Shown here: positions 1,232-22,378 of the stretch, in pieces
Layout of the letters: every line of letters begins with the position of its first letter
Position numbering within the stretch: position 1 is the stretch's first letter
IMG/VR virus record: IMGVR_UViG_3300030110_002702
Coordinates: 743-23,120 of that record
Origin: a virus
DNA: 22,378 nt
Strand: one strand, 5' to 3'
Notes under the pieces: generated by a model
The model's database searches: none
What the model was told of the DNA's origin: nothing
The model's input: only the letters and a program-made list of their open reading frames with translations
Made by a program: the position numbers and the translations under genes

Positions 1232-1570
1232 ATGGGAATAAATTCAACAGAAGTCGCTTATAACTTCGGGCAAATGGGTAGTGCACATAGTCAAACGGCT
1301 GCTAATACGATAACACCACCAACAGGTAAAGTTATAGTTGCAGTACAGTTTTTAGACGATATATCTTTATCAACGTTGACTCCAGAGCAAATTTATGGTG
1401 TAGATGCTTTTATAGGTATAGATAGTACATTATCAAAAACAGATGGTGGTAGTGAGGTTATAGATTCAAGTGTAGTTTTTCCAGCTGGTAGTACTATTGT
1501 TGGTAGATGGACTCATGTGAGTTTACAAGCTAATAATGATAGTGGTATCATCTGTTACTTTGGTCAATAA
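1232..1570 (+). CDS. Small unknown phage protein, probably virion-associated
   Basis: The 112-residue product is rich in Ser, Thr, Gly and Val with alternating hydrophobic residues, which suggests an all-beta fold. The phrase VVFPAGSTIVGRWTHVSL (residues 81-98) resembles small structural proteins I recall from marine phages, but I cannot assign a family. It has no signal peptide, no membrane segment and no catalytic motif. The ATG at 1232 follows AAAAAAATAAAATT, with no Shine-Dalgarno sequence. The stop overlaps the next start as TAATG, linking it to the first LamG gene. It could be a fibre accessory, a decoration protein or a baseplate-like piece; I cannot choose among these from sequence alone. 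Confidence 0.6.
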   Translation: MGINSTEVAYNFGQMGSAHSQTAANTITPPTGKVIVAVQFLDDISLSTLTPEQIYGVDAFIGIDSTLSKTDGGSEVIDSSVVFPAGSTIVGRWTHVSLQANNDSGIICYFGQ

Positions 1571-2832
1571 TGTTAGGGTTAGGATCTTCTTTAACTAAAT
1601 CAAGTAAAATTCGTAAACGTATAGTTCGTAATAATTTAGTGTTAAAGCATGATTATAACGCTGGAGGAGTAGAACAAGTAAGTACTGGTGCTGCAAGTTT
1701 TGTTAGATCTGGTGTAGACTCAATTTCAACAGGTTTTGGAACTGCTTTAACTCCAAAAACCACAGGTTTTACCACTTGTTTCTGGGCAAAAACCAACGAC
1801 CTTAGTAGTACCCAAATGGTGTTAGCTTGTGACAATGGTACTAATCAAAGAATGTATATAGGAATTCATTTGGGTTATTGGAGATTTGGATGGGGAGATA
1901 CTGCTTGGGGTAGTGGAACAGCAAGCGCGACAACAGAATGGACTCATATAGCATTAATCCACACAACCTCTACAGATACAACTCAAATGTATATTAATGG
2001 ATTAAAAGATAATACTAGAACAGACACTGGTTCTGGTACTTTTAACGATGGAACATTTGGAGGTGATTTTGTAATAGGAAAACATGGGGCAAGTGGAGAT
2101 GTTACATATGCTTGGGATGGGTATATATGTAATACGGGAATATGGACTAGAACTCTTACACAAGAAGAAGTAAAATCTATATGGTATAAAAATTACGCAG
2201 ATCTTACAGCTGCGGAAAAAACAAGTTTAGTATCATGGTATAATTTAGATAGCACGATAGGAGAATCGACTGATACTGATGTCGGACCCCAAACTGGCAC
2301 TGGCACTTCTACTAGAGTTAATTCGTTTGTTTTAGATAATCATGGATATTCTTTAGGTAGCGAAATGGTAGAGAATTTTGGATTTGAAGATTCATCTCAA
2401 ACAAGTTATACAACTCTAAGAGCTACATATGAGTATGTCCCTGGTAACAACGGTTTAGCGGTAACAACAACTGGAACTATACCCGGTGGTGGTGTAGCTG
2501 CAAATCAATACGTTACAATTCCAGTGTCGCCAAACGTTGATGCTGCTAAAAAATATTTACTTTCATTTGATATAGTTAGCACAAACACAACAACTAACGC
2601 GGGTGTAATTGTCGGTGGTATTTCGGGAACTGATATACATGTTGATAAGGGAGGAACTGGAGATCACTATTGGTATCCTAATACAGTTGGTTCCCACTCA
2701 TCTATAGTTACGTTTTCAAGTGGCGGAACGATAACATTAAGTTTACACGCTGGTACAGCTATAGGAAGCGTTGCTACATTTGACAATTTATCATTTAAAG
2801 AAATAACAGGTAATTTAGGAACTTTATCATAA
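1570..2832 (+). CDS. LamG/concanavalin-like plus jelly-roll protein, probable tail-fibre or surface-binding protein
   Basis: The 420-residue product has two beta modules. Residues about 35-235 look like a LamG/concanavalin A-like lectin domain: the strands around FTTCFWAKT, the EWTHIALIH segment, MYINGLKD, and a closing TGIWTRTLTQEEVKSIW are its usual landmarks. Residues about 262-413 resemble a carbohydrate-binding-module (CBM4/9-like) jelly roll, opening with MVENFGFED and closing with FDNLSFKEI. Such domains bind glycans or proteins and are common in adhesins and phage fibres. The N-terminus is basic (SSKIRKRIVRNN), with no signal peptide. The gene joins both neighbours through TAATG overlaps. 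The same LamG/jelly-roll architecture continues in the next gene, so the two probably act in one fibre. Confidence 0.75.
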   Translation: MLGLGSSLTKSSKIRKRIVRNNLVLKHDYNAGGVEQVSTGAASFVRSGVDSISTGFGTALTPKTTGFTTCFWAKTNDLSSTQMVLACDNGTNQRMYIGIHLGYWRFGWGDTAWGSGTASATTEWTHIALIHTTSTDTTQMYINGLKDNTRTDTGSGTFNDGTFGGDFVIGKHGASGDVTYAWDGYICNTGIWTRTLTQEEVKSIWYKNYADLTAAEKTSLVSWYNLDSTIGESTDTDVGPQTGTGTSTRVNSFVLDNHGYSLGSEMVENFGFEDSSQTSYTTLRATYEYVPGNNGLAVTTTGTIPGGGVAANQYVTIPVSPNVDAAKKYLLSFDIVSTNTTTNAGVIVGGISGTDIHVDKGGTGDHYWYPNTVGSHSSIVTFSSGGTITLSLHAGTAIGSVATFDNLSFKEITGNLGTLS

Positions 2833-5800
2833 TGGCAAGTACAATACAAACAATAGAAACACCGAAACGCGCAAGAGCGTTGGATACATCTACCGGATGG
2901 CAAATAGTTAGTGCAGAATTAATAGCATCTAATGCTGCTAATAATCGTACGTTTGATAGTGGCGTTGGTGATTGGATAGTGTATGATGGTGATCATCCGG
3001 ATGATACAGCAATAGCTAATGCAAGTAATAAATTACAAGTTACAACTACAGTTGACGATGCGGATGAAGGAGCTCAACTTCCTATTGCTCACGTAGGTGA
3101 CGGTAGTACCACGTCGATAGTAGCGGGAAGAAGTTATAGAGTTAGTATGGATTTAGATTTAACAACACCAGGTTCAGGAACTTTTGCAATGAGAATGACT
3201 TTTGCTGGAGATACTAGTAGTTCCTTTGATATCACCACAACAGAAACAACTTATACTAAAGATTTTGTAGCTCAAAATAATACAGGTGGTTTGTTTATAT
3301 ATAATACATCTAGTACAAACACTGTGTTTACAGTAGATAATGTATCTGTAAAAGAAATAAGAAATTTCCCAAATAACAACCACGGTCAAATATATTCTGG
3401 TAGAGGATTAGAGTTTGATGGTGTTACAGATTATTTAGATACACCTATAAAATTTGATTCAACTAATTTTACTTTCGCCGCGTGGATTAAAGCAAATGAT
3501 GATAGTGTTAATAAAGTAATAATAGATTGTAGAGACGGGGATAATGATGGTATTATGCTTCAATGTACTACTGCTGAAACAATTAAACTTGGTTTAAATG
3601 CAGTAGATACAACAGGTAGCGCTATAGTAGCGAACAAATGGGCGAGAGTTGTAGCCACATACGATGGTTCAACGGTAAATATATATGTAAATGGTGTTTT
3701 AGACGTAACAGCAAGCGTATCACAAACCTTTTCCGCAGATACAAAGACGCTTAGAATAGGTCGTAAAGCATATGGAGATTCTAATTATTTTAATGGACTT
3801 ATGTCAGATGTTCAAGTTTGGACTACAGCTTGGACAGCAGACGATGCATCTTATGATTACTTAAATCCAGAATCTATAGTATTAAACAGAGGCGGTACAT
3901 CACTTACCAACTCTAATCTCAAACTATGGTATCCAATGCAAGGTGGGCATAGAGGCCAGCAATCATATATTTTAGATGCATCTAATACTGGACTTGGAGA
4001 TAATATGCTTACAGATCGTGATGGAAATTATTACGCAGATATGGAAGGATTAACAAGTAACAGTACTGATGCAACAGGTTACGATACTATAGATAATGCT
4101 GCTGGCTATGAGGTATTTAAAGCATATGGTACCACTACAGTTGTAAGTCTTTCTAGTGATATTAAATATTCTGGAAGTTCTTCTTTAAAATTTGTAACTG
4201 ATGCTACCGATACTAATGCTGGAGTATATACTGCTTATACAAATAATAGTGATAGAATTTTAGGAATTAAAACTGGGACTACGTACAAAGTGTCAGGTTA
4301 TATATACAGAGAATCAGGTTCTGGTGCAATAGATGTTTTTGTTAAGAAAGCAGACGGCGGTGGTGGTGGTAGTGCAAACTGGGGTATGACAGCGCACCGA
4401 ATAACACCATCATCAAATGGAGTTTGGGAATATTGGGAAAATTATTATACGTCAGCAGAGTCAGGTGATCTAGCTTTTATATTATTTTCTAATAGCCAAT
4501 CCGTTGATACTTATTATTTAGATAATATAAAATTTGAACCCGTAAACGATAAAAACCACGCAACAACTTTATTTTATGGGGATGATATGTGGGATGCTGC
4601 TGATAATAGTACTTCGATATGGACGGTTTCAAGTAATAGTTCTAGCGCAGTAATCGATGGTACTAACGAAGGGGTTAAGTTAGTTTTTGGAAATGCTACT
4701 AGTCCACACGGTTCGTTTTCACAGCTTAGAGAGACAAAAGGTTTAAATAGCGATTTAACAATTGGAAGACAATACAGAGTAACTGGTTTGTTTGCTACTG
4801 ATGTAGCGGGACATTATGACACTGGAAACAGTATCAATAATGGCGCTGCGGTTAGTGTTTATAATGGTTCTCACGTATGGCCTAATGAAGCTTCAGGATA
4901 TCGTAACGTAACGGCAACTAATTTAGTTGCTAATGGTACTATGGAAGCTAATGATAATTGGAACGCGTATGGTAGTGGTACGATTTCACAAAGTACTGTT
5001 CAAAAACACAATGGCAGTAACTCTTTTAAATTTGTTGTAGCAAATGGAGGAGAAAATGATGGTATACAATCAGATACTTTTACAGTTACAGCAGGCACTA
5101 CATATTTACTTAGTGCTTGGATTTATCCAGATGACACCACTACAATAACCATGAAAGTACTACAAGGTGATGGTAGTACATTATCAGAAAGTATAACAGG
5201 TCTTACCGAAAACGCTTGGAACCATGTTGTTAGACAGTTTACAAATGCTACCGCTGGTAGTAGCGCTGCCGTACGTTTTACTAATACCGGAACAAATAGT
5301 TCAGGTACTGACGATAATTATTATATTGATGATGTTGTATACACTGCATTTTTAGAAAGAAATATTGATTTTACCGCAACTGATGCTACAACTAATTATA
5401 TAGCCCACCACAGTACTGAAATGTCTACGGCAAATTCTATGATTGCTTTAATAAATGATAGAAATGCAATTTTTGATGAAGCAGGACAATGGGTGGAATA
5501 TGTAGAAAATGCTACCAATCCCACTAATCCAGCTATTACAGATCCAGGAGAAAGATTACAATTTTATGGAACATCAAGTACAGATAAAGAAGGTGTTAAA
5601 TTACTTGTTGCTAATTTTGAAGCTTTAGAATTAGGTAGAAGTTATGTTGTACAAGTTAATTTAGAAGCAGGAGCTGGAACCCCTACGGTTTACGTTGGTT
5701 TAGGTGGAGCTGAATCAACAGCAGGTCAAGCAATAAGCACAACTGCTACTGATTATGCTTTTAACATAACACCAATTAACACAACTGGATCTCTCTTGGT

Positions 5801-7319
5801 TTATACAAAAGAAGATTATACAGGTGGTAGTAATCATATATTTATGGATAATATAAGATTATATCCTACTGCTAATTTATATGTTGATGATTTATCAGTG
5901 AAAGAAATAGGTGTTGCTTCTGGTTGGACAGACGCAGATCAACAATTACATATACCGCAAACAGTGTTACAGTCGTATAATGAGTTATTATGGTTTCCTG
6001 GAAATGATGCTCTTGCACACGCTACTAATGATTATGATGTAAGCATAAGTGCTCATTCTGATTTAGCAAATATATTTGATACTGGTGGTAGCGTTAGTGT
6101 TTGGGTTTTCTGCAATGGAGCTGGTGCTGGTACGTTTGGTAGAATTATAGAAAAAGACTCTTGTTGGGAATTATATACACATAACGAGTCTAACGAACAA
6201 GTTCAATTAACTTTTCAACTTTTAACTAGTAGTACTAATTCAATAACTAGAACTGACGGTAGACTACTTAATATGGGGCAATGGAATCATATAGTTGTAA
6301 CTTATAATTCTAGTACTGTTGGTACTGCGGCTAAGATATATATAAACGGTGAAGAAGTAGATCCTGATCACGCTCAAACAGGTTCAGGAACAAGAACTGA
6401 TGATACTACTAAAGTTCTTACTATAGGTAATAAAAAAGATGGAACAAGAACCTTTGATGGTACTATAACAGAAGTTTCTTTATGGACAAACACGCTTACT
6501 CATACGGAGGTTAATGAATTGTATAACGATGGTAAAGCTTTAGATGTTATGACTAGTTCTTCTTATTTAGCGAATAATGGTCACGTGAAAGGTTATTGGA
6601 GAAATAATGGATTAAATACTTGGACAGACTTATCTGATAATTCAAATAACGGTACTGTAAATAATATTACGGAAACAATGTTAATCCCACAAGGTGTAGA
6701 TGGTTCTAGAGATTCACAAGGGTTTATAATGAATAGACAAAGAAACATTAGTAGTTTGAATTTTCCCGCGGTAACATCATCACCAATTACGCTTAACGAA
6801 GGTTCTTATGTAGAAATACAAGATAACCCAACATTAAATTTTGGAACAGGAGTATTTTCAATAGAAGGTTGGGCAAAAGCTAAATATAGAGCTAAACCAA
6901 ATGCAGCCGGAACCGCTAGTACTCTAAACACTATATTTCATCTTGGAGATGGTATTTCTGATAGTGATACTTCTGGTATTTGCTCTGTTAGTACTATAAA
7001 ATTAGGTTTTTATGTAGGAGGCCAACTTTGCCATGCGAACGCAACTTTTACAGAGGGAAATTGGTATCATATTGTTGGTGTTAGAGAAGGTACTGGCACT
7101 GATGAAATAAAATTATATATAGATGGAGTCTTACAAAGCGACACAGAAACTTATGCTGGCTCTATAACTAACACACATAATCCTGGTATTAGTTTTGACA
7201 GTAATTCAACGAGACGTTATGAAGAAGCTATAGATGGTATTAAAGTGTATAATAAAGCTTTAAGTTTAGCGGAAGTAAAAAGAAATTACAATGCTACCAA
7301 AAGTAGTCACAGAAATTAA
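2832..7319 (+). CDS. Giant multi-domain LamG/CBM-like jelly-roll protein, candidate receptor-binding tail fibre
   Basis: This is the largest complete gene, with 1,495 residues and no signal peptide or membrane segment. Modules in order, with approximate boundaries: jelly roll 30-176 closing with VDNVSVKEI; LamG 190-350; jelly roll 427-571 closing with LDNIKFEPV; a partial jelly roll 577-693; CBM4/9-like 695-842 opening with NLVANGTMEANDNW and closing with IDDVVYTAF; jelly roll 842-1027 with MDNIRLYPT and VDDLSVKEI; LamG 1047-1240 with WNHIVVTYN and KIYINGEEV; LamG 1321-1495 with WYHIVGVRE and KLYIDGVLQ. These folds typically bind sugars. The composition is Thr/Ser/Asn/Gly-rich, as in extracellular fibres. 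The start overlaps the previous stop as TAATG. A glycan-binding tail fibre is the best reading; a head fibre or non-receptor decoration is possible. No catalytic residues for a depolymerase were identified. Confidence 0.75.
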   Translation: MASTIQTIETPKRARALDTSTGWQIVSAELIASNAANNRTFDSGVGDWIVYDGDHPDDTAIANASNKLQVTTTVDDADEGAQLPIAHVGDGSTTSIVAGRSYRVSMDLDLTTPGSGTFAMRMTFAGDTSSSFDITTTETTYTKDFVAQNNTGGLFIYNTSSTNTVFTVDNVSVKEIRNFPNNNHGQIYSGRGLEFDGVTDYLDTPIKFDSTNFTFAAWIKANDDSVNKVIIDCRDGDNDGIMLQCTTAETIKLGLNAVDTTGSAIVANKWARVVATYDGSTVNIYVNGVLDVTASVSQTFSADTKTLRIGRKAYGDSNYFNGLMSDVQVWTTAWTADDASYDYLNPESIVLNRGGTSLTNSNLKLWYPMQGGHRGQQSYILDASNTGLGDNMLTDRDGNYYADMEGLTSNSTDATGYDTIDNAAGYEVFKAYGTTTVVSLSSDIKYSGSSSLKFVTDATDTNAGVYTAYTNNSDRILGIKTGTTYKVSGYIYRESGSGAIDVFVKKADGGGGGSANWGMTAHRITPSSNGVWEYWENYYTSAESGDLAFILFSNSQSVDTYYLDNIKFEPVNDKNHATTLFYGDDMWDAADNSTSIWTVSSNSSSAVIDGTNEGVKLVFGNATSPHGSFSQLRETKGLNSDLTIGRQYRVTGLFATDVAGHYDTGNSINNGAAVSVYNGSHVWPNEASGYRNVTATNLVANGTMEANDNWNAYGSGTISQSTVQKHNGSNSFKFVVANGGENDGIQSDTFTVTAGTTYLLSAWIYPDDTTTITMKVLQGDGSTLSESITGLTENAWNHVVRQFTNATAGSSAAVRFTNTGTNSSGTDDNYYIDDVVYTAFLERNIDFTATDATTNYIAHHSTEMSTANSMIALINDRNAIFDEAGQWVEYVENATNPTNPAITDPGERLQFYGTSSTDKEGVKLLVANFEALELGRSYVVQVNLEAGAGTPTVYVGLGGAESTAGQAISTTATDYAFNITPINTTGSLLVYTKEDYTGGSNHIFMDNIRLYPTANLYVDDLSVKEIGVASGWTDADQQLHIPQTVLQSYNELLWFPGNDALAHATNDYDVSISAHSDLANIFDTGGSVSVWVFCNGAGAGTFGRIIEKDSCWELYTHNESNEQVQLTFQLLTSSTNSITRTDGRLLNMGQWNHIVVTYNSSTVGTAAKIYINGEEVDPDHAQTGSGTRTDDTTKVLTIGNKKDGTRTFDGTITEVSLWTNTLTHTEVNELYNDGKALDVMTSSSYLANNGHVKGYWRNNGLNTWTDLSDNSNNGTVNNITETMLIPQGVDGSRDSQGFIMNRQRNISSLNFPAVTSSPITLNEGSYVEIQDNPTLNFGTGVFSIEGWAKAKYRAKPNAAGTASTLNTIFHLGDGISDSDTSGICSVSTIKLGFYVGGQLCHANATFTEGNWYHIVGVREGTGTDEIKLYIDGVLQSDTETYAGSITNTHNPGISFDSNSTRRYEEAIDGIKVYNKALSLAEVKRNYNATKSSHRN

Positions 7320-14899: not shown

Positions 14900-16408
14900 A
14901 TGGCAATTTCAAATCCTGGTGGTTTGTTAAATAGTGTTGCTGCTCCATTGAAGCAAACATTATCTACAAACTACTTAGACTTAGCTGGCACAGCAAACGA
15001 AGGTTGGGCACAGCAATACGTTCCAGATTTAATGGAAAAAGAAGCTGAGGTTTTTGGACCTCGTACAATTTCAGGTTTTTTAGCACAAGTTGGCGCTGAA
15101 GAAGCTATGACAGCTGATCAAGTTGTTTGGTCAGAACAAGGTAGATTACACCTTTCATTTAAAGGTCACGTAGAATCAAACGCTGGTGGTACAGCATCTG
15201 GTGGACAAATTCAATTAGAAAAAGATATTGATGGTTTAGCGGTTACTTCTGGTTCTTTACCTATACGTGTTAACGATACTGTTTTAATAGCAAACTCTGA
15301 GGGAGTTGTTAGATGTATCGTTGAAGCTGTAGCTACTGACATTATCGATGTACAACCTTATTCTCACGCTTCATTAAACACTGCTGGTTTATCAACAACT
15401 GGTGGTTCTGAAACTACAACTGTATTAGTTTATGGTTCTGAATATGGTAAAGGTATGAGCTACTTGACTGCTGGTGACGGTAGTGCTACTGACACTAGAG
15501 GTGCTAACGAACCAACTTTTAAATCTTTTAGTAACAAACCAATTATAATGAAAGACTACTACGAAGTTTCAGGATCTGATGCTTCTAGAATTGGTTGGGT
15601 TGAAGTTTCTACTGAAGCTGGGCAATCTGGTTACTTATGGTACTTAAAAGCTGAAGCTGATACTAGAGCTAGATTTACTGACTACATCGAAATGTCAATG
15701 TTAGAAAGTGAGCTTAACCTTGTTGCATCTACAATTGATGGTTCTGATCTAGTTGCTGGTTCTGCAGCTGGTGCTGGAAACGTTGGTACAGAAGGTTTGT
15801 TTGCGGCTATTGAATCAAGAGGTAACGTTACTACTGGTGTAACTGGTGTTAACGCTGCTACTGATTTAGCTGAATTTGATGCTATCTTAGCTGAGTTTGA
15901 CAAGCAAGGTGCTATTGAAGAGTACATGATGTTTGTTAACAGGTCAACTAGCTTAGCTATTGATGACATGTTAGCTTCAATGAACTCTTACGGTGCTGGT
16001 GGTACATCTTACGGTGTATTCAACAACTCTGAAGATATGGCTTTAAATTTAGGTTTCACTGGTTTCAGAAGAGGTTCTTACGACTTCTACAAGTCTGACT
16101 TCAGATATTTAAATGACAAAGCTACAAGAGGTAGTATTAACGATGCTAACGCTACTAACGCAATTAGAGGAGTTATGATTCCTGCTGGTACTTCTTCAGT
16201 TTATGATCAAACTGTTGGGGCAAGCATGAAGCGTCCTTTCTTACACGTTAGATATAGAGCTTCACAAACTGATGACCGAAGAATGAAAACTTGGACTACT
16301 GGTTCTGTGGGTGCTGCTACAGCGGCTCTTGATGCAATGCAAATACATTTCTTATCAGAAAGATGTTTAATCACTCAAGGCGCAAACAACTTTATGTTAA
16401 TGAAGTAA
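14900..16408 (+). CDS. Major capsid protein (HK97-fold expected)
   Basis: The 502-residue product is the expected shell subunit: right length, right place after portal and scaffold, and Gly/Ala/Thr-rich composition without cysteine-rich or membrane parts. The N-terminus (NYLDLAGTANEGWAQQYVPD) reads as an N-arm, with no separate delta domain since scaffold is encoded apart. Residues about 97-195 form a beta-rich insertion (IRVNDTVLIANSEGVVRCIV) that could be an I-domain-like barrel. The ending HFLSERCLITQGANNFMLMK is compatible with the P-domain strand. C-ending codons for Phe, Tyr, Asn and Asp are more frequent than in adjacent genes, as expected for very high expression. A strong terminator follows. 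The fold is inferred from context and family habit. Confidence 0.85.
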   Translation: MAISNPGGLLNSVAAPLKQTLSTNYLDLAGTANEGWAQQYVPDLMEKEAEVFGPRTISGFLAQVGAEEAMTADQVVWSEQGRLHLSFKGHVESNAGGTASGGQIQLEKDIDGLAVTSGSLPIRVNDTVLIANSEGVVRCIVEAVATDIIDVQPYSHASLNTAGLSTTGGSETTTVLVYGSEYGKGMSYLTAGDGSATDTRGANEPTFKSFSNKPIIMKDYYEVSGSDASRIGWVEVSTEAGQSGYLWYLKAEADTRARFTDYIEMSMLESELNLVASTIDGSDLVAGSAAGAGNVGTEGLFAAIESRGNVTTGVTGVNAATDLAEFDAILAEFDKQGAIEEYMMFVNRSTSLAIDDMLASMNSYGAGGTSYGVFNNSEDMALNLGFTGFRRGSYDFYKSDFRYLNDKATRGSINDANATNAIRGVMIPAGTSSVYDQTVGASMKRPFLHVRYRASQTDDRRMKTWTTGSVGAATAALDAMQIHFLSERCLITQGANNFMLMK

Positions 16409-17304: not shown

Positions 17305-17343
17305 TGTAGATGCAGTCGCTCTACGGGGCGATTGCAAACTACA
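17305..17343 (+). other. Extended hairpin with UACG tetraloop in the leader of the 54-residue gene
   Basis: TGCAGTCGCTC (17311-17321) pairs with GGGCGATTGCA (17326-17336) over all 11 positions, two as G-U, around a TACG loop closed by C-G (UNCG family). Flanking TGTAG (17305-17309) and CTACA (17339-17343) add a second 5-bp stem separated by one base on the left and two on the right. No T-run follows; the 3' side is AAATTTAATTAT. It may be a partial terminator, a processing or stability element, or a translation-control structure for the gene at 17356. Confidence 0.75.
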
Positions 17344-17355
17344 AAATTTAATTAT

Positions 17356-17520
17356 ATGGAAAAGAATAAATCAAAAGGATTAGGTGACTCAATAGAAAAA
17401 ATAACAAAAGCAACGGGAATAAAAAAAGTTGTTGATACCGTTGCTAAAGCAACTGGTAAAGACTGTGGGTGCGGTAAAAGAAAAGAAACTTTAAATAGAT
17501 TATTCCCGTATAATAATTAA
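17356..17520 (+). CDS. Small conserved Bacteroidetes-phage protein with a CGCG motif
   Basis: I chose the ATG at 17356 (54 residues) because the alternative TTG at 17332 lies within the hairpin stem. The protein has a lysine-rich N-terminus, an imperfect repeat (KITKATGIKKVVD and TVAKATGKD), and a C-terminal DCGCGKRKETLNRLFPY. That last motif recalls small proteins in other Bacteroidetes phages in which two nearby cysteines precede RKE-LN-LFP. The cysteines could bind metal or be redox-active, but one CxC alone is too little for a full zinc site unless the protein oligomerises. The function is unknown. It sits among head-completion genes, eight bases before the next start. Confidence 0.65.
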   Translation: MEKNKSKGLGDSIEKITKATGIKKVVDTVAKATGKDCGCGKRKETLNRLFPYNN

Positions 17521-17528
17521 AAAAAATT

Positions 17529-18239
17529 ATGGTTAGTATAAACGAAGTATATCAAAAAGTTTTAATGTTTGCTAATAAAGAGCAAAGAGGTTATATAACT
17601 CCTCAAGAATTTAATATGTTTGCTGACCAAGCACAAAGAGAAATATTTGAACAATATTTTTATGATTTAAATCAATTTGCTAGAGTTCATGGTAATTCAT
17701 ATGTACATTCTGATATTGATCAGTTATTACAAGAAAAAATGTCAGTATTTGAAGATGGCGATAGTTCTGCTACTATTTCTACTTACGCTGGTGGTACAAC
17801 TAAAACTCTTCCAAGTTATATATATAGAGTATATCGTGTAGAATATAATAATATTTTATGTGAACTATTAAACACTAACGATTTTAATGATCGTATAAGT
17901 GGTGGACCTTTAACAGGACCTACTTCAACTATGCCTATAGCGAATATTAAAAAAAATAAAATTAAAGCAGCTATTAATACTACAAACTTTGTAACACCAA
18001 CTAATATTTTATACTTTAAAAACCCATCAAAACCTAATTGGGGATATGTTGTTGTAAATAAAAAAGCTATGCACAATCCAAATCCATCAGCAACCACTGA
18101 TTTTCAATTACACAAAGCTGAAGAAGTTGAGTTAGTTTATAAAATATTAAAATTTGCTGGTATATCGATGAAAAGAGAAGATATATTAGGATCTGCACAA
18201 TTACTAGAGCAATCACAAGTACAACAAGAAAAACAATAA
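17529..18239 (+). CDS. Head-tail connector-like virion protein
   Basis: The 236-residue product opens with a helical segment containing ITPQEFNMFADQAQREIFEQ (residues 23-42), a pattern shared by adaptor-type proteins of short-tailed phages, where an N-terminal helix bundle docks on the portal. A beta-rich middle (PSYIYRVYRVEYN, then NWGYVVVNKKAM) follows, and a helical, Gln-rich C-terminus ends EQSQVQQEKQ. The C-terminal helix-plus-extension suits insertion into a portal cleft. The gene lies after the capsid and directly before a second connector-like gene, with only three bases between. The exact ring (adaptor or nozzle) cannot be told from sequence alone. Confidence 0.55.
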   Translation: MVSINEVYQKVLMFANKEQRGYITPQEFNMFADQAQREIFEQYFYDLNQFARVHGNSYVHSDIDQLLQEKMSVFEDGDSSATISTYAGGTTKTLPSYIYRVYRVEYNNILCELLNTNDFNDRISGGPLTGPTSTMPIANIKKNKIKAAINTTNFVTPTNILYFKNPSKPNWGYVVVNKKAMHNPNPSATTDFQLHKAEEVELVYKILKFAGISMKREDILGSAQLLEQSQVQQEKQ

Positions 18240-18242
18240 TAA

Positions 18243-19736
18243 ATGGGATTATTAGACAACACTACACATCAACAATATTATCAAGGAAGTGATTTTGGTA
18301 ATTATCAATTTACTTCTTTGCAAGATATTATTAATCAGTTTATGATTGCTTACGTAGGTGAAGATAAAATAATTTCTAAAGTACAAAGAGGTGATGTTCA
18401 GTTTCACGCTATGCGCGCTTTACAAGAATTATCTTTTGATACATTTAAGTCTATTAAAGCTCAACAAATTGATATTCCTGCAACTTTAGTAATGCCCCTT
18501 CCTCATGATTATGTTAATTATACTAGAGTAATGTGGACAGACAGTGCTGGAATAAAACACCCTTTATATCCAACTCGTGATACTCAAAATCCTTTTCAAA
18601 TAGCTCAAGATGAAGACGGTGCATATACATTTGTGTCTGAAAACGAAGAAATTATAAATGGAGATTTTAGTGATACAAATATAAATGATACTTGGACTAA
18701 GTGGTCTCAAGGAAATGGTGGTAAATGGAAAATAAAAAACTCTGGTTTTGAATTTAAATCTCAAGGTGCTGACCCTTTTGGATGGAATGCTGTAATGCAT
18801 CAAGAGATAGACGTTAGTGATAAAACCATTATATCGTTATCTGCTGATGGTTTAGCTGTTGATATTCAAGACGCAGGGTCTAACAATGCCCCAGGTACAT
18901 TAAGAATAGGTTTAGCAACATCTGCTGATGTAAATACTATATTAAAAAACGATCCAAGTGATTCTAACGCTAATAGTAGTAGTGTGGTGCATATCGCTAG
19001 TAATCTTTTTGATATTTCAGATACTAATGGAGATTTAGCATTTTTAGAGTGGACTGTAAGTGCTGATGGCACAACTTCTACTACTAAAGAAATAGGAAGT
19101 ATTGATGTTACTTCAGAAAACGAAATATACGTAATTGTTATGGCTTTTCATGATTTTAGTAATACAACAACTGCTATTGCTAGTTTTACAGATTCTTGTG
19201 TTATGGATAATATATCTGTAATAGCAGACAATGTAAATACCAGTTTAGTAAGTCCCGCAGGTAATGAATTTGAATCATCTACTTGGAAAAATTACAAATC
19301 TCATAATCCTTCAGAAAATAATCTTAATGATTATCAAGATTATCAAAATGATATATTTTGGCCAAATGAAGGTAAAAGATATGGATTAGATCCAAAACAC
19401 GCTCAAGTAAATGGATCATTTTATATAGATCAAAGATTAGGAAAAATACATTTTAGTTCTAATGTTTCTGGAAAAACAGTTGTATTAGATTATATAAGTG
19501 ATAGTCTTGGTACAGATGAAGAGATGCAAGTGCATAAATTTGCAGAAGAAGCAATGTATAAATGGATTATGCATGCTGTATTATCAACTAGAATTAATGT
19601 TCCAGAATATCAAGTTCGTAGACTAAAAAAAGAAAGATTTGCCGCTATAAGGCAAGCAAAATTAAGATTATCAAATATTAAATTAGAAGAATTAACTCAA
19701 ATTTTAAGAGGTAAATCAAAACAAATAAAACACTAG
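18243..19736 (+). CDS. Head-tail connector-like protein with an apparent inserted jelly-roll domain
   Basis: The 497-residue product has a connector-like outer part. The N-terminal part (1-133) includes QRGDVQFHAMRALQELSFDT and LPHDYVNYTRVMWTD; the C-terminal part (about 335-497) includes NEGKRYGLDPKHAQVNGSFY, ISDSLGTDEEMQVHKFAEEA, and a basic helix ending RGKSKQIKH. Between them, residues about 134-330 form an independent beta module that begins INGDFSDTNINDTWTKW and ends VMDNISVIAD, the same start and end pattern as the CBM4/9-like jelly rolls of the fibre genes. Related phage proteins, as I recall them, join the outer parts through a short loop, so the jelly roll looks inserted. It might project from the neck and bind glycan or other virion proteins. 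The following gene begins four bases after the stop. Confidence 0.6.
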   Translation: MGLLDNTTHQQYYQGSDFGNYQFTSLQDIINQFMIAYVGEDKIISKVQRGDVQFHAMRALQELSFDTFKSIKAQQIDIPATLVMPLPHDYVNYTRVMWTDSAGIKHPLYPTRDTQNPFQIAQDEDGAYTFVSENEEIINGDFSDTNINDTWTKWSQGNGGKWKIKNSGFEFKSQGADPFGWNAVMHQEIDVSDKTIISLSADGLAVDIQDAGSNNAPGTLRIGLATSADVNTILKNDPSDSNANSSSVVHIASNLFDISDTNGDLAFLEWTVSADGTTSTTKEIGSIDVTSENEIYVIVMAFHDFSNTTTAIASFTDSCVMDNISVIADNVNTSLVSPAGNEFESSTWKNYKSHNPSENNLNDYQDYQNDIFWPNEGKRYGLDPKHAQVNGSFYIDQRLGKIHFSSNVSGKTVVLDYISDSLGTDEEMQVHKFAEEAMYKWIMHAVLSTRINVPEYQVRRLKKERFAAIRQAKLRLSNIKLEELTQILRGKSKQIKH

Positions 19737-19739
19737 TAC

Positions 19740-22378
19740 ATGCCAGATATGAAGCGTAATTTTACCGGTGGTAAAATGAATAAAGATCTCGATGAGAGAC
19801 TTATTCCTAACGGAGAATATAGAGATGCGATGAATATACAAGTGTCAACTTCAGAAGAATCTGATGTTGGTACAGTTCAAAATATATTAGGAAATGTTCC
19901 AGGTTGTACTTACGTACCTTTAACTGATAATCCTATAGTTGAAGGTTCAACTACTGTAGGTTCTATTTCGGATGAAAAAAATGATTCTCTTTACTGGTTT
20001 GTTGCTGGTCCTGAAATAAGTATAAGTAATATAATTTTAGATTTAGGTGAAACATTATCACTTAAAGATATGATAATGAGAACCAATAATGATATTGGTA
20101 GTGGATGTGAACCTGTTTTTGTTGATAAACATACTTTTTGTACTGGTTACGAAAACACTGATTCATCTACTCTTTCAGATACTTTATATATAGATGATGT
20201 TAGTTTATATCCTAATATCTTAATAGGTATGAGTGTAACTGGTTTTGATGCTAATGGAGATATAGTTTGGGGTGGTGGTGATGTACTTGTAAATCAAGTC
20301 GGAACAATATCTACTATACCAATTGATTATCAAGTTGCAACAACAACAACGACAAGTCAAATAAGTGATCCTTCCGGTATGGCTTTCTTAAGAACTTTTG
20401 ATAACAATGGTACTAATGATCCATTTGTTGATTGGCATGTAGATAATTGGTTTAGTGGTGGTTATGATGGCAACCAACAAAACTTACCACCAGTAACAAG
20501 TGTTGTTAGTAATCCTATTTTCATACAAATTATTTTGCCAACTTTACCCCCAGCTTGGCAGGTTGGCGCTGTAGTAGAAGATTTAGGTCAAACAAATGGT
20601 TTTCTTATAAAACAAACTTGGGGTAGTGGTGGTGGTGAAGCAACAATTACTAATATAGTATATGATTTTGTTTGTTCCAATGGTAACCATATAGATCCAA
20701 ATAATTATGGCGCTTCTTGTCTACAAGCTTATATAGTGACTTTAAAAAAGAAGATTTCGTCAAAGTTTAATTTTGCTTGGATTAACAATAGTGCAAACCA
20801 AAACACTTCTATGCAAGCTTGGGGTGGGGTAAATGAAAATGGAGAAACTGGACAATACATACCACTAAGTAATCTTCAAGCAACAGTAGATATAGATACA
20901 GTTAATCTTACTAACACTATGCTTATAGATAGTTATTCTGATCAATGGCTTAACGAAATCTATAATGCGCTATGGATTGACACAGTTACACCTACTGGTA
21001 ACGTTTTATCAATAAACGAAACCTTTGGAAGTAGTGGTGTTTGGCCACCAAATTCTTGTATTGATCCAGACTCTGTTATTGACGCAGTAAATTTTGATCC
21101 TGATAATGGAGTTTACGATAATAGCATTAATATAGTTGCTTGTGATCTCTCGAATGGTACTGTAGATGCTAGTACGCTTCATACCGCGGTATCTCAAAAT
21201 AATACTTTCCAACCCGTACAATTTGATATATCATATCCTTCTTCTTTAGACGCTGTGTTTTTAAACCAAGCAGTAGAGATATCCAATACAACAGCCGTAT
21301 GTTTTCAAGCAGAAAAAGTTTTAAATTTTAATTCAAGTAGATTAATTACAGGTGTAAATATTATTGACGATATGTTATTTTGGACTGATAATTTTTCAGA
21401 ACCAAAAAAAATAAATATACCACGTAGTGTTCAAGGCACAGATCCATCAGGTAACATACATACTAATATTATAAACGCAAGTACAGGTGTAAATGTACCA
21501 GCTAAAGAGGAACACGTTACAGTTATAAGAAAAGGACCAAAATCTACTCTCTCTGTAGATTTAAAAACATCAAGAGATCCAGAAAAAAATTATTCTGGTA
21601 TAATGAGGATTTCAACTATTACGAATTTTACAGACTCTACTTTATGGGATCAACGTACCGACGCGGCATTTCCTAGTTTAACTGGTGATCCTACTTTACC
21701 TTTTGATTTTTCTTCTTTTACCACGGAAGAAGGTAACAATATATTTAGAACACAAGTTGTTAGTGATTTAGATGGTAATACAACTTTTGATTTAGATGGT
21801 TTAAAAATAGGATCAAAGGTTGTGTTAAGAGAATTTGATTCTACAGGTGTCCCACCTTCAATACCAATTAATGATTATACTATAAAAGGAACTATAGTGC
21901 CTTGGGAATATACAAATCCTAGCACATTAGTAACTACAGATGCTAATAGCTTTACTTCTGATACAGCTAATGTTTGGGGTGCTAAACTAGCTATTAAAAT
22001 AACTAGTATGCCAGCACCACCACCGATAGTGCCAGCTGGTGTTAATACATTAGATTATGCTATTGATTTATATGATGAAGATGAAAAATTATTTGAATTT
22101 AAGTTTCCTAGGTTTTCTTATAGATATAAATATGAAGATGGTGAATATTCAACTTTTGCTCCTTGGACAAATGTAGCTTTTTTACCAAGTAGTTTTGATT
22201 ATCATCCTAAAAAAGGTTATAATTTAGCAATGGTTAATAGTATAAACCATTTATATCTTAGAGATTTTGTAACTGCAGACATGCCTAGCGACGTAGTAGA
22301 AATTGATTTATTATATAAAGAAGATTTATCTCCAAATGTTTATGTAATAGAAACTTTAAAACCAAATTCAGAAGCAAC
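19740..22378 (+). CDS. Large tail protein, 'stabilization'/muzzle-like (3' end outside window)
   Basis: The frame is open from ATG 19740 to the window end, giving 879 complete codons with no stop. The N-terminus MKRNFTGGKMNKDLDERLIP followed by NGEYRDAMNIQVSTSEESDV matches the conserved opening I recall from the large 'stabilization' or muzzle proteins of crAss-like and other Bacteroidetes podophages. Two segments resemble beta-propeller blades: NDSLYWFVAG near residue 81, and DDMLFWTDNFSEPKKINI with LFWTD at 546-550, which is YWTD-like. The N-terminal domain also has VFVDKHTFCT and LYIDDVSLYPNILIGM. It probably forms the distal tail tube closure in a podovirus-type tail. It follows two connector-like genes, as expected for that role. 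Confidence 0.65.
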   Translation, partial: MPDMKRNFTGGKMNKDLDERLIPNGEYRDAMNIQVSTSEESDVGTVQNILGNVPGCTYVPLTDNPIVEGSTTVGSISDEKNDSLYWFVAGPEISISNIILDLGETLSLKDMIMRTNNDIGSGCEPVFVDKHTFCTGYENTDSSTLSDTLYIDDVSLYPNILIGMSVTGFDANGDIVWGGGDVLVNQVGTISTIPIDYQVATTTTTSQISDPSGMAFLRTFDNNGTNDPFVDWHVDNWFSGGYDGNQQNLPPVTSVVSNPIFIQIILPTLPPAWQVGAVVEDLGQTNGFLIKQTWGSGGGEATITNIVYDFVCSNGNHIDPNNYGASCLQAYIVTLKKKISSKFNFAWINNSANQNTSMQAWGGVNENGETGQYIPLSNLQATVDIDTVNLTNTMLIDSYSDQWLNEIYNALWIDTVTPTGNVLSINETFGSSGVWPPNSCIDPDSVIDAVNFDPDNGVYDNSINIVACDLSNGTVDASTLHTAVSQNNTFQPVQFDISYPSSLDAVFLNQAVEISNTTAVCFQAEKVLNFNSSRLITGVNIIDDMLFWTDNFSEPKKINIPRSVQGTDPSGNIHTNIINASTGVNVPAKEEHVTVIRKGPKSTLSVDLKTSRDPEKNYSGIMRISTITNFTDSTLWDQRTDAAFPSLTGDPTLPFDFSSFTTEEGNNIFRTQVVSDLDGNTTFDLDGLKIGSKVVLREFDSTGVPPSIPINDYTIKGTIVPWEYTNPSTLVTTDANSFTSDTANVWGAKLAIKITSMPAPPPIVPAGVNTLDYAIDLYDEDEKLFEFKFPRFSYRYKYEDGEYSTFAPWTNVAFLPSSFDYHPKKGYNLAMVNSINHLYLRDFVTADMPSDVVEIDLLYKEDLSPNVYVIETLKPNSEA

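Follow-up and report, generated by a model that had tools for sequence, protein, structure and literature searches.

A predicted CBM-type jelly roll in a putative tail-barrel ring protein of a phage related to phi38:1, and the variably filled site that holds it

Introduction

Ring and adaptor proteins of the phage neck are usually treated as conserved assembly parts, and a neck protein that carries a domain resembling those with which phages adhere to their hosts raises the question of what such a domain is, how it came to be there and what it does. The window analysed here is the whole 22,378-nucleotide stretch of a marine phage that spans positions 743 to 23120 of a virus record 23,120 bases long (IMG/VR IMGVR_UViG_3300030110_002702). 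It contains a 497-aa ORF on the + strand, running from an ATG at 18243 to a stop at 19736, in which a first-pass annotation had placed a CBM-like jelly roll at 18640-19235, inserted into a head-tail connector.

Conserved core and gene order

Gene order in the window runs terminase (9035), portal (11253), scaffold-like protein (13701), major capsid protein (MCP; 14900), a 273-aa protein (16477), a 236-aa protein (17529), the 497-aa protein (18243) and a muzzle-like protein (19740), and is the same in phi38:1 (Pervagoviridae) and Maribacter phage Panino. The 497-aa ORF matches PHROG 13977, a 'virion structural protein' family, in two separate stretches (E 1e-47) that lie on either side of the insert, bearing out the earlier view of its flanks as one continuous connector; judged from sequence, both ends are a single conserved protein of a two-part neck/ring type. 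The N-terminal half of this core comprises residues 1-130 (18243..18632, + strand) and is delimited by alignments, the two PHROG stretches and AF2 modelling, while the C-terminal half comprises residues 345-497 with the stop included (19275..19736, + strand) and keeps the motifs STW..YKS, YISDSLGT, KLRLSN and RGKSK.IKH across homologues. AF2 supplied with 23 sequences modelled the core poorly (pLDDT 55.7); a 97-sequence alignment resolved it and gave a mean pLDDT of 79.1 for the window protein. In this model the N-terminal half is predicted to contain helices at residues 26-37 and 49-62 and β strands across 71-110, and the C-terminal half helices at 432-449, 455-476 and 481-491, giving a helix-helix-beta...beta-helix-helix topology.

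Both core halves are homologous to gp96 of phi38:1 and the PHROG 13977 family (36-42% identity over the core), with the order terminase-portal-MCP-ring-ring-muzzle shared. Unlike the 497-aa window protein, gp96 of the cultured Cellulophaga phage phi38:1 and its equivalent in Panino are insert-free, at 283-290 aa. A more distant likeness is seen with crAss001, in which dodecameric rings of four paralogous proteins are stacked between portal and muzzle, two of these proteins (R1 and R2) bearing fibre hubs (PMC10172136). In the window, too, the ring gene stands directly before a gene resembling the muzzle, and the upstream neighbour (17529..18239, + strand; PHROG 14543), a 236-aa ring/adaptor protein that is insert-free here, matches the crAss001 ring protein gp34 (R4) at an hhalign probability of 90. 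The crAss001 R1-R4 proteins are insert-free at 225-238 aa. The core of the 497-aa protein showed no R1-R4 match by sequence, with hhalign probabilities below 1 against gp34, gp35, gp40 and gp43, and PDB sequence-profile searches with the core and with the insert gave no useful match. The muzzle/nozzle-like protein (19740..22376, + strand) runs off the window and is recognized by PHROG 14478 and by Pfam crAss_MUZ at E 2.1e-6, just under the cut-off.

Two further ORFs of the window may be recorded alongside this gene order. A 142-aa ORF at 210-638 carries the motif NHEMRHATDM, which looks like an HExxH zinc-peptidase site, and a small 62-aa ORF at 17332-17520, which separates the upstream ring gene from the 273-aa protein, carries the motif KDCGCGKRKE.

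The inserted domain and its predicted fold

The window protein has 258 aa between its two conserved core halves. Among 136 homologous ORFs the length of this inter-core segment is bimodal, at 49-69 aa in some and 124-290 aa in the rest and never intermediate, and the segment is therefore an insert rather than a product of chance. The extra segment covers approximately residues 131-344, with the folded domain within about 134-330 (18642..19232, + strand), so that both limits agree with those first proposed; NGDFSD begins at residue 139 and MDNISV falls at about residues 322-327. This jelly roll, assigned to sequence class c1, is identified by its absence from about half of the homologues, by AF2 and by Foldseek. 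AF2 predicts it to be all-beta, with strands across residues 152-329 and block pLDDT mostly 60-96. The best Foldseek match in the PDB is 2xom, TmCBM61 with galactotriose (E 2.8e-6, target TM 0.64), and further matches include a porphyran-binding CBM, CBM16, CBM27, CBM4, an alginate-binding CBM and phage tail-fibre modules. AF2 and Foldseek together give a two-sheet jelly-roll fold matching solved CBMs, in line with the CBM-like jelly roll of the first-pass annotation; Pfam CBM families were matched neither by the window protein nor by 10 members of its class. By predicted fold, the insert is a CBM-type jelly roll.

Occupancy of the site among relatives

The site was followed through 293 distinct loci, namely those having both the ring protein and its upstream neighbour. 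It is filled in 148 and empty in 145, and the inserts of the 148 filled relatives cluster into about 10 sequence classes at the one site. The largest, c0, is a GMxV...IPxGT repeat (88 relatives), followed by the window-type jelly roll c1 (41) and the classical CBM-like jelly rolls of c2 (9, L011 among them); c3 and c4 are also jelly rolls (2 relatives each), c5 is short and not jelly-roll-like (2 relatives), and the remaining classes are four singletons. A FastTree phylogeny built from the cores requires at least 32 changes of insert class, against a mean of 127 with shuffled labels. Since only 8 of these are switches between empty and filled and 24 are changes of content, filled sites mostly swap what they hold. 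With IQ-TREE (118 rows), jelly-roll, GMxV and empty forms adjoin in one small supported clade (L011, L022, L074 and L041). The loop appears to be a modular insertion site, or 'plug-in socket', in the β part of the ring protein. The single inserted domain of the earlier reading is real, but the many different domains held at the site, and at the adjacent ring protein too, had been missed.

The neighbouring ring protein

In relatives, one loop of the upstream ring protein may hold a jelly roll, as in L027 (whose insert matches CBM_4_9 at E 1e-4, below the cut-off), or a different loop may hold a GMxV repeat, as in L053. Some inserts of the neighbour are homologous to inserts of the ring protein itself (R_L344 versus U_L198, E 7e-12). 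Both proteins are filled in only 4 of the 293 loci, 2 of them clear. A contingency test on the whole set (p 2e-10) was set aside because loci had been sampled on insert status; separately selected sets and simulation were used instead. Among loci picked by the neighbour protein alone, ring and neighbour inserts stood at 3/34 versus 52/89 (odds ratio 0.07, p 4e-7); among those picked by the ring protein alone, they stood at 1/16 versus 110/181 (odds ratio 0.04, p 2e-5). A two-state tree simulation with ring states fixed gave p 0.005-0.0075 for avoidance. When each cluster was allowed one vote per state, p was 0.03 at 80% identity and the signal was gone at 75%. Avoidance between the inserts of the two proteins is taken as likely.

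Of the double cases, L128 and L288 have a neighbour that by eye shows no discrete extra domain, and L211 and L244 are exceptions to the one-decoration pattern. The upstream ring protein of L211 (2932-4689) has a further insertion point holding two tandem jelly rolls, and that of L244 (2950-4047) has one near 'IYFYPD'; the ring gene is also filled in both loci.

Exchange at domain edges and the origin of the inserts

The exchange of inserts can also be followed in the DNA. L029 and L011 share a stretch of 5,631 bp at 99.6% identity, capsid gene included, which extends as far as about nt 329 of the ring gene; beyond this point their inserts are unrelated, and the switch falls at the domain edge. 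L029 could be an assembly chimera, as its contig stops inside its own insert. Other sister pairs with differing inserts break at the same two places, for example L257/L263, in which the downstream flank is 91% identical. Within the window's own class, L130 and L016 have cores that are 96% identical and inserts that are only 39% identical.

A separate observation concerns the capsid gene. When the DNA of relatives is aligned in pairs, the alignments often break in one and the same stretch of approximately 350 bp, at about 15150-15590 in the major capsid ORF (14900-16408), indicating that the MCP has a hypervariable region of its own, which is perhaps an exposed insertion-type domain.

As to where the window's insert came from, the first-pass annotation had suggested acquisition from the phage's own fibre genes. 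The two adjacent fibre-like ORFs at 1570-7319 contain four Laminin_G_3-type stretches and a CBM_4_9, and by eye at least five jelly rolls, four of which form two sequence pairs. With a cut-off of E<=5, a profile of the window-type insert matched nothing but ring genes, both in the window, its two fibre-like genes included, and in 137 loci, and the insert alone had no match among GenBank phages. None of the five fibre jelly rolls gave a significant match to the insert, either pairwise or by hhalign, in a small database with imperfect trimming and with the C-terminus of the insert cut short. A few c1 matches outside ring genes appeared in a larger set, in ORFs running off contig ends right after the neighbour gene; by position, these are truncated ring genes. 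The boundaries NGDF...DN(I/V)SV are general among CBM-like jelly rolls, and so the resemblance of insert and fibre domains at these edges is no evidence for a local copy. A fibre origin is thereby left unsupported.

Across the whole group, inserts are likely to have been exchanged among virion proteins, because other classes have relatives in neighbouring virion genes. Jelly rolls of c2, c4 and c8 are also found at the muzzle position, as profile matches 3' of the ring gene in L198, L211, L250, L372 and L365, and c3 recurs in another ORF of L014. In the window's muzzle-like protein, the motif IGMSVTGFDANGD at about residue 160 resembles the GMxV class of ring inserts, and this muzzle may carry a module related to that class.

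Comparison with known virion decorations

The closest parallel is found in the lactococcal 936 siphophages, which carry CBMs on neck, tail tube and Dit (PMC6669499). In both groups, domains of jelly-roll or other CBM type, multicopy in 936 and presumably so here, sit on non-fibre parts, which in 936 are the neck passage structure (NPS), major tail protein extensions and evolved Dit, and in both there are several exchangeable classes, with a 936 neck decoration generally excluding others (PMC6669499). One CBM of a 936 NPS bound host cells with low affinity, for which compensation by copy-number avidity has been proposed (PMC6669499). The scaffolds differ: in these siphophages of Gram-positive hosts the neck CBM is carried terminally, on a coiled coil, by a collar protein of its own, whereas here the domain lies in a loop of a putative tail-barrel ring protein, the alternative sites lie in two or three consecutive barrel proteins, and the phages are related to short-tailed flavobacterial ones. 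A 936-type NPS protein, that is, a separate collar with a BppU-like N-terminus and a C-terminal CBM, was considered for the window and rejected, the insert being internal and the core that of PHROG 13977. The domain shuffling described for NPS proteins (PMC10684548) is similar in that a near-identical flank gives way abruptly to a non-homologous domain, although that exchange is C-terminal and the present one involves an internal cassette with both flanks conserved. CBM decoration of phage virions and domain shuffling are therefore already known, and it is the scaffold of tail-barrel ring proteins and the breadth of the phenomenon that are unusual; CBM inserts in podovirus adaptors were not found in the openly accessible literature.

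Proposed function and alternative readings

The reading favoured here, at a probability of roughly 60%, is that the insert is an interchangeable, externally displayed and probably glycan-binding accessory module in a socket that relatives fill in various ways. The ring protein would belong to the short tail barrel, with portal/adaptor on one side of it and muzzle on the other. If it is dodecameric as in crAss001, twelve domains of about 22 kDa (about 200 aa) could not fit the DNA channel, and for this reason they would be placed outside as a multivalent collar. Such a collar could act as a low-affinity, high-avidity glycan-binding accessory that holds the virion to host-surface polysaccharide, and recombination in the conserved flanks would replace the insert when surface glycans change, host glycans being the presumed selecting agent; the same loop would then come to hold other jelly rolls, the GMxV repeat or nothing, or the insert would move to the adjacent ring protein. 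By analogy, the simplest reading is that of the 936 CBM decorations' function on a different scaffold, and the glycan-binding second adhesion site suggested earlier is plausible. Counted against a glycan collar are the negative Pfam CBM result for the window-type domain, the negative crAss001 ring comparison for the core, the loss of the avoidance signal on clustering at 75% identity, the chance that L029 is a chimera, and the half of the relatives that lack any insert. The GMxV domain of c0, moreover, belongs to no known type of CBM, so that the classes may not have glycan binding in common.

The strongest competitor, to which about one chance in four may be given, gives the insert a structural or docking role, in which it would brace the neck to the capsid or anchor a fibre hub, vary with its partner and bind no host glycan. 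Docking has precedents in the fibre hubs carried by crAss001 R1 and R2 (PMC10172136) and in the roseophage R4C adaptor, whose N-terminal Ig-like domain contacts the capsid (PMC10276861), and the lack of a CBM match for the GMxV domain suits it as well. A capsid partner, however, is made less likely by L029 and L011, which share the capsid gene within their near-identical 5.6 kb and hold unrelated inserts; empty forms are common, and the nearest solved structures to the jelly roll are CBMs.

Less probable still is a nearly neutral insert, carried as a passenger in a permissive loop that has gathered β domains of no fixed function by illegitimate recombination. The many unrelated contents, several insertion points and numerous insert-free relatives would be expected of such a loop, but content changes outnumber empty/filled changes by 24 to 8, reading frame and fold are preserved, and neighbouring sites are seldom both filled, patterns that neutral gain would not obviously produce. 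That the domain is an ordinary integral part of the connector family, or arose through faulty annotation or assembly, is very improbable, for although some insert is present in 148 of the 293 relatives, intact empty homologues exist in phi38:1, Panino and the other 145 loci, by which an integral domain is rejected, and the ORF is matched at 100% in a second, longer contig (L001).

Implications

On the glycan-collar reading, a wider and more tentative proposal, somewhat more doubtful than not, is that in marine short-tailed relatives of Pervagoviridae the ring-protein loops are a standard socket following a rule of 'one decoration per barrel', with glycan-binding collars exchanged independently of the fibres and the neck acting as a fast-evolving host-range determinant. 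In this large set of phage contigs the contents of the plug-in loop turn over like receptor-binding domains, and the ring-protein loop naturally tolerates foreign domains. The approximately 10 natural inserts at one site make the question of glycan binding directly testable. If these domains do bind glycans, host-range prediction from fibres alone would miss a second determinant.
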